64,000 nucleotides of DNA, from assembly GCF_016097415.1 (NCBI RefSeq), contig NZ_JAEHGE010000001.1, positions 87,001 through 151,000 on the forward strand. Reading direction: 5' to 3'. The notes under the pieces were generated by a model that was not told the origin of the DNA, did no database searches, and saw only the letters and a program-made list of their open reading frames with translations. This DNA is from a sulfur-oxidizing endosymbiont of Gigantopelta aegis (GTDB lineage: Bacteria; Pseudomonadota; Gammaproteobacteria; GRL18). The position numbers and the translations under genes were made by a program. Positions 1 through 2,755 of this stretch are shown here, piece by piece. Numbering within the stretch: the stretch's first letter is position 1; every line of letters starts with the position of its first letter.

Positions 1-894
1 AATGCCGCGTTTTATGTCGAAACAGCGCCCAAAGAAGCCTGTATCGCCACTTCAACACAAATTCAGGGCAAAGAGTTATCGTATAATAATATTGGTGATA
101 CCGATGCCGCGTTAGAGTGTGTGAAGCAGTTCAGTGAAGGGCCTGCCTGCGTCATTGTCAAACATGCAACCCCCTGTGGTGTTGCATTGGGTAGCGATCA
201 ATTAGAAGCCTATGATCGGGCTTTTAAAACCGACCCCACTTCAGCATTTGGTGGCATTATTGCTTTTAACCTGCCATTAAATGCGGCCACTGCTCAAGCA
301 ATCATCGAGCGTCAGTTTGTGGAAGTCATTATTGCCCCTTCGGTTGATGACGATGCCATTGCCATTCTCGCCGAAAAGAAAAATGTCCGCGTATTAGCCT
401 GTGGCCAATGGGCTGATATGCCCACACAAACCTGGGATTATAAGCGCGTCAATGGCGGTTTGTTAGTACAGGAACGTGATTTGGGTATGGTTACTGAGGC
501 CGACTTGAAAGTGGTCACCAAGAAAGCACCCACACCTGAGCAAATGATGGACTTACTCTTTACCTGGAAAGTGGCTAAATTTGTTAAATCCAATGCCATT
601 GTTTATGCTCGCGATAAGCAAACAATTGGTGTTGGTGCTGGGCAAATGAGTCGTGTTTATTCCGCTAAGATAGCCGGTATTAAAGCAGCCGATGAAAACT
701 TGGTTGTACCGGGTTCGGTGATGGCATCCGATGCTTTCTTCCCTTTCCGCGATGGTTTGGATGCGGCTGCTGAAGCTGGAATAGCTGCGGTGATTCAACC
801 GGGTGGCTCAATGCGTGATCAGGAAGTGATCGATGCTGCTGATGAGCATGGCATTGCTATGGTATTTACAGGAATGCGTCACTTCAGACATTAA
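1..894 (+). CDS. purH: Bifunctional AICAR transformylase / IMP cyclohydrolase, 3' part
   Basis: Last two steps of purine synthesis: formyl transfer to AICAR and cyclisation to IMP, in the cytoplasm. The frame is open from base 1, so the 5' end lies outside the window; about 297 residues of a protein usually near 520 are present, covering the C-terminal transformylase domain. Visible family motifs are [10 protein letters not shown], the [14 protein letters not shown] stretch, KSNAIVYA and the canonical ending [14 protein letters not shown]. In many gammaproteobacteria purD follows purH; here no purD follows, and the next element is an RNA-like locus on the other strand. Identification is secure; only the upstream half is unseen. 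Confidence 0.97.
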
Positions 895-931
895 GTTTTT
901 CATTTTACTTTTCATTTTACTTTTCTATAGG

Positions 932-1120
932 CACAAAAAAAGCGACCGAGCCGTAGCTCATGGTCGCTTTCGTACCTCCGTTCCAAGCCATTTTGTAATA
1001 CGATTAACCAAAAATCCTATTCAGAAAATATTGCATTATAAAACTCCTGCTTGCGGTCACTCCGTAGACCCTGCACTCCATAATCGATCCGTCTTACGTC
1101 GTCCTTAAAATCTTTAATAT
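932..1120 (-). ncRNA. Candidate CsrA/RsmA-binding small RNA (CsrB/RsmZ-like)
   Basis: Read on the minus strand, this roughly 190-nt segment carries eight GGA triplets (TCC on +), about four times chance for its length, in contexts such as AAGGACG, ACGGATC, ACGGAGT, CAGGAGT and AACGGAGG. One lies exactly in a hairpin loop: GGTC / GACC arms at 1055-1058 and 1067-1070 enclose ACGGA. A TTGATG/TAAGAT promoter precedes it and a strong intrinsic terminator ends it. No convincing protein is encoded. Known CsrB/RsmY/RsmZ RNAs sequester the translational regulator CsrA with repeated GGA loops; family membership here is inference from motif density and architecture. Confidence 0.5.
936..970 (-). terminator. 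Intrinsic terminator of the candidate sRNA
   Basis: On the minus strand AAAGCGACC pairs with GGTCGCTTT, with an inner GAGC/GCTC stem, followed by seven T residues. The T-tract is only on the minus-strand side, so it terminates transcription arriving from about 1120, not primarily purH. Confidence 0.8.
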
Positions 1121-1126
1121 GGAACC

Positions 1127-1156
1127 ATCTTAGCAGTTATTTTCATTAAACATCAA
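1127..1156 (-). promoter_or_regulatory. Sigma70-type promoter of the candidate sRNA
   Basis: Minus strand -35 TTGATG (1151-1156) and -10 TAAGAT (1127-1132) with an 18-bp spacer, predicting a start near 1119. Just upstream of the -35, ATCAC-N4-GTGAT (about 1156-1169) forms a palindrome that could be an activator site; it does not match a GacA box. Confidence 0.4.
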
Positions 1157-1261
1157 TCACTTATGTGATCGTTTATTCTTAAAAAATGCTCGTATAAAAA
1201 AATAAGCATAAAAATACAATCATGAATAGTGTGAACTAATTAACAGTTTTAACCATAAAAT

Positions 1262-2755
1262 TCACAAATTAACAATAATTTTCAATGCCGATTGATTAAT
1301 TGTCTGGGCTTTTTCTACGCTATCCGACTCACTATAACAACGAAATTCGGGGGCATTGCCTGATGGACGAAAATGAATAATATCGTTATTTGCAAAGGTG
1401 ATTCTTAGCCCATCCAAAGCATTCATCTGGCTGATACGACCAAATTGTGGAAAATCAGCCTCAATTGCTTGCTTATTTTCGGCTTCTGTTCCAGCAGTAT
1501 AACGAGACACCAAGGCCTGACTACGCTCAGTGGCAAAGTCTTTAATGCGATCGCTATAGGTGAAACGTTGCGGTAATTGGGCTGATAATTGCGATATTGA
1601 AAGGCCTTGTTCGACACTACTATGGAGCAGGGTCAACAACACAATTATCGCATCTCTGGTCGGTAAAGCCGTTAATAAATATTCATTTCGACGAATCGGT
1701 GTGCCCAGTAAAAAGCCACCATTGGCCTCATAGCCTGCCACTGCGGCATAATGATCTTCAATATAATCATTCATCGCTTCGATAACATAAGGCGAACCAA
1801 TTCGAGTACGTTTCACATCGGCAAAGAAACCGGATGCTTCGACACCCGTATTCGAACTGACCGGCGTCACAATGTGATCGATGTGTAAATATTGCGCACA
1901 TAAAAAACCAACAATGTCACCTCTTAACCAGTCCCCGTTTTCATCACTGATCAAGGGTCTATCGGCATCACCGTCCGTTGACACAATCGCATCTAAGGCA
2001 TGCTCTGCCACCCACTGCTTAGCTAATTTAATATCTTCTTCACGTACCGCTTCGGTATCCACGGGAATAAATTGCTCAGCACGTCCTAATAGCACGACTT
2101 CTGCACCCAGTTTTTCTAAAATAGCAGGAATCATATCCCGAGCGACACCACTATGCTGATACACACCTATTTTTTTCCCTGCCAATGCATTGGCGGGAAA
2201 CAAATCCTGATAGCGTTGCTGATAGGCATTGCCAGCACTTGAGTCCAAACTTGGTAAGCCATTACTCTGATCACTAAATTGCCCCTGAGCATCAAATAAA
2301 CTGTCCGGCACATTAATGACTTGATGTTTAATCAGTATTTCATCTTCTTTGAGGATTTCACCGGCGAGTTTGTAGAATTTGATGCCATTTCGATCATCAG
2401 GAATATGACTCCCGGTGACCATAATGGCCGGACATTGCTGAGTCAGCCCATACAATGCCACGGCGGGGGTGGCAATCAAACCCGTATAAATGACTTCATA
2501 ACCACTATCAATAATGGCTTTTGCACAAGCATTGAGAATGTCTGGCGTACTGGCACGCAAATCACCGGCCAGGGCAATTGAATTCGATGGATTGGCCGCC
2601 CGTCCCATCTGTTGAGTCTGTTCTAAATATTGGATAAAACCTAAGGTATAGGCATAGCAAACCTGATCACTCATGTCTGCTACCAAGCCTCTAGCCCCAC
2701 TGGTACCAAATTTCACCTGACTACTATGCATTAATTCTTCAATACTGATATTCAT
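1262..2755 (-). CDS. manB: Phosphomannomutase/phosphoglucomutase family
   Basis: Interconverts mannose-6-phosphate and mannose-1-phosphate for GDP-mannose synthesis (exopolysaccharide or LPS sugars). 497 residues with all alpha-D-phosphohexomutase signatures: KFGTSGARG near residue 15, the phosphoserine loop TGSHIP (Ser116), the metal loop DGDADRP (261-267), the sugar-binding EANGG (343-347) and a C-terminal phosphate-binding RPSGNAPE. Its ATG lies 2 bp after the manC stop, so the two genes are one transcription unit. Specificity for mannose is inferred from the manC neighbour; phosphoglucomutase activity is also possible. Confidence 0.93.
   Translation of the reverse strand: MNISIEELMHSSQVKFGTSGARGLVADMSDQVCYAYTLGFIQYLEQTQQMGRAANPSNSIALAGDLRASTPDILNACAKAIIDSGYEVIYTGLIATPAVALYGLTQQCPAIMVTGSHIPDDRNGIKFYKLAGEILKEDEILIKHQVINVPDSLFDAQGQFSDQSNGLPSLDSSAGNAYQQRYQDLFPANALAGKKIGVYQHSGVARDMIPAILEKLGAEVVLLGRAEQFIPVDTEAVREEDIKLAKQWVAEHALDAIVSTDGDADRPLISDENGDWLRGDIVGFLCAQYLHIDHIVTPVSSNTGVEASGFFADVKRTRIGSPYVIEAMNDYIEDHYAAVAGYEANGGFLLGTPIRRNEYLLTALPTRDAIIVLLTLLHSSVEQGLSISQLSAQLPQRFTYSDRIKDFATERSQALVSRYTAGTEAENKQAIEADFPQFGRISQMNALDGLRITFANNDIIHFRPSGNAPEFRCYSESDSVEKAQTINQSALKIIVNL

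Follow-up and report, generated by a model that had tools for sequence, protein, structure and literature searches.

A predicted GGA-rich RNA locus between purH and a pgm/manB-type gene

The window, the whole 64,000-nucleotide stretch of DNA analysed here, begins with the 3′ part of purH (1..894, plus strand), which converges on a predicted CsrA-sequestering small RNA (sRNA) of about 186 nt on the minus strand (935..1120). The 5′ end of the sRNA was inferred from its −10 element and the 3′ end from its terminator. Upstream of it, on the same strand, lies a phosphomannomutase/phosphoglucomutase-type (pgm/manB-type) gene (1262..2755). Both gene names were assigned by reading the protein sequences, and both neighbours are kept in other species. 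A preliminary description of this DNA had seen no plausible protein in the gap, and the sole longer open reading frame there (833..1108, plus strand) indeed runs over the 3′ end of purH in a different frame. The same description had counted eight GGA motifs on the minus strand; direct counting confirmed them, with starts at 1104, 1090, 1079, 1063, 1047, 1017, 984 and 979. The intrinsic terminator that it had proposed was recovered by a terminator scan and by folding as a stem followed by seven U (935..969, minus strand; U-tract 941-935), a feature present in most homologues.

We measured the GGA density against the rest of the window and against shuffled sequence. At least eight GGA per 190 nt occurred in 0.05% of window stretches on both strands, and the only other eight-GGA cluster on either strand of the 64 kb, at +52970, lies within a 762-codon uvrA-like reading frame. 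Relative to dinucleotide shuffles of the window RNA, the excess of GGA was borderline (8 versus 5.0, p ~0.05), and five ANGGA/AGGGA motifs were found where shuffles gave 1.5 (p ~0.01). The GGA count alone is suggestive, not decisive; the strong evidence is conservation.

Conserved GGA sites and covarying helices

Alignment of homologues defined a conserved core (1034..1110, minus strand) with five GGA sites spaced 11-16 nt apart and a consensus of approximately AAGGAnGAyGTAAGAnGGAnCGATtAnGGAGnnnAGGGTCnAnGGATtGACCGCAAGCAGGA. Conservation in this alignment is concentrated on the GGA columns of the core, which have 98% mean identity with 13 of 15 columns invariant, compared with 84% and 18 of 48 for the other core columns; at the fifth site, homologues have either GGA or GGG. 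In homologues the core is followed by a linker of 6 to ~100 nt, then GCTTGGTAnGGAGGTA and then the terminator. The corresponding conserved 3′ module of the window copy, GCUUGGAACGGAGGUAC...AAAGCG (962..988, minus strand), places a GGA site ahead of the terminator.

Two helices emerged from the minimum free energy fold and from covariation. One is the hairpin GGUC-UACGGAGU-GACC (1055..1070, minus strand), with the consensus GGUC-nAnGGAnn-GACC across homologues; in the predicted fold its loop presents the ACGGA at 1063, as the preliminary description had proposed. The other pairs CAAGC (1053-1049) with GCUUG (988-984) around a CAGGA and the variable linker (984..1053, minus strand). The second helix is paired in 100% of cells across the alignment through compensatory changes (CAAGC/GCUUG, CAGGC/GCCUG, CAUGC/GCAUG and CAGAC/GUCUG), and in the copies with the shortest linkers it is reduced to a simple hairpin, CAAGC-AGGAAA-GCUUG, whose loop again holds a GGA. 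For the two helices together, a MAFFT alignment that was not fitted to structure gave 95.6% of cells paired and 18 double changes versus 6.0 in shuffled controls (0/500), a signal that was lost once the helix partners were slid. Inclusion of a further order (see below) raised the count to 47 double changes versus 13.5 in shuffles, in an alignment fitted to the model and thus leaning towards it.

Folding predictions indicated that the GGA sites of the window RNA are not all buried in stems, with a mean unpaired probability of 0.65 compared with 0.41 for the whole RNA. GGA sites were also predicted to be more exposed than other purines (0.70 versus 0.48), the difference being in this direction in 30 of 32 RNAs. 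The folding energy of the window RNA is unremarkable, with a z of about −1 to −1.8.

Homologues within and beyond the host's family

A DNA search of 57 related genomes returned matches in 16, mostly within the 3′ module and the core (1110-1034). We built a covariance model (R1) from homologues of the window RNA; it matched the window at 1108-962 with 103 bits (E 8e-23), the next best match having 12 bits. The same model located four copies in the host genome, at C1:87962-88108 (the window copy), 735178-735315, 2112387-2112480 and 4121974-4122085, and matched 16 of the 24 genomes of the host's family. No match was found in the other eight, some of which are nearly complete (G007 and G016) and have no RNA found by the model despite the presence of CsrA. 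Across the class, R1 matched 5 of 369 sampled genomes. Three of these belong to the host's family, and the two weak matches outside it are GC-rich RNAs of the same plan.

A second, widened covariance model that included GC-rich relatives from other families (R2) gave matches in 15 of 24 genomes from one further gammaproteobacterial order. An example from this order combines GUCG-AAGGAU-CGAC, GGUC-AGGGAUU-GGCC, GGCAAGGAGGUAAC and a terminator, GGCAAGGAGGUAAC being the form in which the 3′ module is common to the two groups. The loci L123-L136, from a gammaproteobacterial order other than the host's, are GC-rich and of the same plan, and had no Rfam match where tested. A class-wide R2 search gave no family beyond those already found, and it missed G087 under stricter filters; one other genome order tried around L087 yielded no further matches. 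Judged on sequence, this is a conserved, uncatalogued RNA family in at least two gammaproteobacterial groups.

The genomic surroundings of the copies are partly retained. purH and/or the pgm-type gene stand beside nine other copies, three of them in a second genus; in both genera, host copy 3 and the copies related to it retain aspC and a thioredoxin-type gene. The L087 copy, from a further family, also adjoins a thioredoxin-type gene (37% protein identity) in the same relative orientation as at host copy 3. From these arrangements, the copies seem to be fixed genes of the chromosome rather than mobile elements. We also observed a DsbC-type gene preceding the RNA in L123 and another near host copy 3 (L024). 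Host copy 4 (G000:C1:2112387-2112480; L090 and L032) does not have the usual terminator and runs ~130 nt further, through more GGA hairpins, to a run of T; from its sequence we read it as a longer sponge of the same RNA family. A sub-threshold match to L20_leader (29 bits; gathering score 58.7) overlaps this extension.

In a pattern scan of named genomes, the matching records were mostly uncultured ‘Gammaproteobacteria bacterium’. One matching named record comes from a symbiont of Bathyaustriella thionipta, a lucinid clam. The main symbiont of this clam has been placed in Thiohalomonadales, and specimen L181 gave two genomes (PMC9938160), either of which the matching record could be. Matches of the pattern to coding sequences in other phyla are unrelated and were set aside, since those sequences have nothing else of the RNA.

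Promoter and upstream region

The TTGATG-N18-TAAGAT promoter of the preliminary description is present as read on the minus strand, with the −10 hexamer TAAGAT at 1127..1132 and a possible −35 hexamer TTGATG at 1151..1156 (spacer 18). Its −10 part lines up with TAnnnT in 15 other copies, whereas the promoter as a whole is a weak sigma-70 match (8/12) with a −35 below the scan cut-off; an automatic promoter scan of the gap reported nothing above that cut-off. Most other copies, unlike the window copy with its TTGATG, carry CCCTAATTG with 19 nt to the −10. In total, CCC(T/C)nnTTG, usually as CCCTAATTG, followed by a spacer of mostly 19 nt and then TAnnnT, was found upstream of 20 of 32 copies, compared with a chance level of 0.14% for CCC(T/C)nnTTG-N19-TAnnnT in shuffled upstream regions. 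The form CCCTAATTG-N19-TAnnnT is seen, for example, at L088, L100 and L106, and the window copy is without it. Several copies also carry a hairpin, GGATT-AGGA-AATCC, shortly downstream of their inferred start, which is again missing from the window copy. Because it has neither the common promoter element nor the 5′ GGA hairpin, the window copy may be weaker or differently regulated.

Many copies have an imperfect inverted repeat, AGG-N4-CCC, ahead of the promoter element. The centre of a palindrome in the window, ATCAC-N4-GTGAT (1156..1169; one match versus 0.05 expected in the window), lies at the same distance from the −10 as this repeat does in other copies, and it had been suggested to be an activator site. 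Among all fetched loci, the palindrome occurred only in those holding the window copy. We reject it as a conserved activator site because no other fetched copy has it, which leaves the suggested role unsupported. A scan of 32 upstream regions for the GacA box TGTAAG-N6-CTTACA found no consistent site, and the best score in the window copy (8/12) equalled that of shuffles.

CsrA and GacA in the host

A csrA gene, on which the earlier proposal depended, was looked for in the host genome and is present, encoding a CsrA of 65 aa and near-standard sequence. Across the family, CsrA was found in 22 of 24 genomes and in 15 of the 16 that carry the RNA, the exception being 81% complete; both CsrA and the RNA are missing from G018, a genome of 94% completeness. 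The host has two further, divergent CsrA paralogues (G000:C1:1339934-1340089 and 1335436-1335531; L022 and L023), which lie ~4.5 kb apart and one of which has a long C-terminal extension (105 aa). A GacA/UvrY orthologue, 55% identical to UvrY of E. coli, lies just ahead of uvrC in the host, as it does in E. coli. A search of the host for a BarA/GacS orthologue returned many hybrid kinases of ~33% identity over the shared domains, and none could be singled out.

Alternative explanations and interpretation

We consider it highly likely that an sRNA gene occupies the minus strand between 1120 and 935, and that its product is transcribed independently, is not translated and titrates CsrA. The preliminary description had proposed such an RNA from the sequence of the window, and the near-invariant GGA sites, compensatory base pairs, terminators, synteny and the host's CsrA and GacA orthologues lend this reading support. 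Four other explanations were weighed against it. The RNA might instead be a processed or read-through 3′ untranslated region of the pgm/manB-type gene, with CsrA sites that work either in cis or as a sponge derived from that region. That gene is on the same strand with its stop codon at 1262, and no terminator-like site with a good U-run lies between this stop and the RNA. However, the −10 occupies a position conserved among the copies, a promoter element is strongly conserved in the other copies, and different genes stand beside three of the four host copies, all of which make a 3′ untranslated region improbable. We regard as similarly improbable an Hfq- or ProQ-type base-pairing sRNA whose GGA or GGAGG sequences mimic or pair with ribosome-binding regions while CsrA is uninvolved. 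The Shine-Dalgarno-like AAGGAGGU in the 3′ module would fit such an RNA, but it would leave unexplained why six separate GGA sites are selectively conserved amid varying bases, why GGA occupies the loops of covarying hairpins and why CsrA is present in 15 of the 16 RNA-bearing genomes.

The two remaining explanations have very little left to recommend them. Translation of a short open reading frame, ATG CAA TAT TTT CTG AAT AGG ATT TTT GGT TAA, after GCAGGAG, or a leader function, could be imagined from the GGAG seven bases ahead of the ATG. This reading frame sits in the linker, whose length ranges from 6 to ~100 nt in homologues and which conserves neither a start nor a frame, whereas the non-coding parts of the RNA are conserved; we rejected it on these grounds and give it almost no weight. 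A chance cluster of GGA motifs next to a terminator serving purH is just as hard to credit: shuffles do reach eight GGA in 5% of cases, yet chance does not account for the conservation, the covariation, the four copies or the synteny, and the homologues refute it.

Under the preferred reading of a CsrA-titrating sRNA, the RNA would be transcribed from its own promoter from 1120 to 935. Its (A)NGGA sites, which recur at regular intervals and several of which are predicted to be single-stranded or in hairpin loops, would be bound by CsrA dimers. More of the sRNA would then mean more sequestered CsrA and the release of CsrA-repressed mRNAs. The four host paralogues are probably additive, by analogy with CsrB/CsrC or RsmX/Y/Z. 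More tentatively, and with less confidence than doubt, we propose that the family is old, spanning at least two orders of Gammaproteobacteria and expanded in the host's clade to as many as four syntenically fixed paralogues that share a promoter element, and that AGG-N4-CCCTAATTG-N19-TAnnnT could represent a non-Gac-box input that acts besides or instead of Gac.

The sequences of CsrA-sponge sRNAs evolve quickly, and such RNAs are usually discovered lineage by lineage. For the clade that includes the clam symbiont, we found no described Csr sRNA in the literature searched; this family now has a working covariance model, a covarying structure and synteny there. The work names RNAs expected to determine how much CsrA is free in the clade, and the four natural paralogues offer material on the number of GGA sites required in a sponge and on the signal that drives it.

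Comparison with known Csr and Rsm RNAs

The preliminary description had likened the locus to CsrB, RsmY and RsmZ. The likeness holds for the plan, which the window RNA has in common with them, and does not extend to membership of those Rfam families: the CsrB, CsrC, RsmY and PrrB_RsmZ models had no match in the window or in 22 homologous loci, permissive E-values included, and the RsmY model had none in the host genome. Because no Rfam family matches, the window RNA is not a catalogued CsrB, CsrC, RsmY or RsmZ. A match to RsaJ in the window (12 bits; gathering score 100) was treated as chance. In the reverse direction, R1 searched against 11.5 kb of E. coli K-12 made one match, inside csrB (15.8 bits, E 0.006). 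This match is weak and may reflect GGA density, yet it falls at a known CsrA sponge.

Single-motif RNAs fail to sequester RsmA, several GGA being required (PMC2375449), and a published screening rule for such sRNAs asks for at least two ANGGA, a poly-U tail and a terminator (PMC5568370), all of which the window RNA has. From its sequence, it very probably belongs to a new family of CsrA-sequestering sRNAs that work like RsmY/RsmZ/CsrB. The family resembles RsmX/RsmY/RsmZ of Pseudomonas (RF00195 RsmY and RF00166 PrrB_RsmZ) in size class, intrinsic terminator, multiple GGA predicted to be unpaired, GGA hairpin loops, several copies per genome and a host with CsrA/RsmA and GacA, and differs in having no Rfam match and no GacA box. 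It shares its working plan with CsrB/CsrC of Escherichia coli (RF00018 and RF00084), but is about half their length, with 6-10 GGA and no Rfam match. Compared by description, Pf1 of Pseudoalteromonas (PMC9927453) has ~21 GGA and a reported putative GacA-binding sequence, unlike the RNA described here; it too is a lineage-specific Csr sRNA, confined by sequence to its genus.
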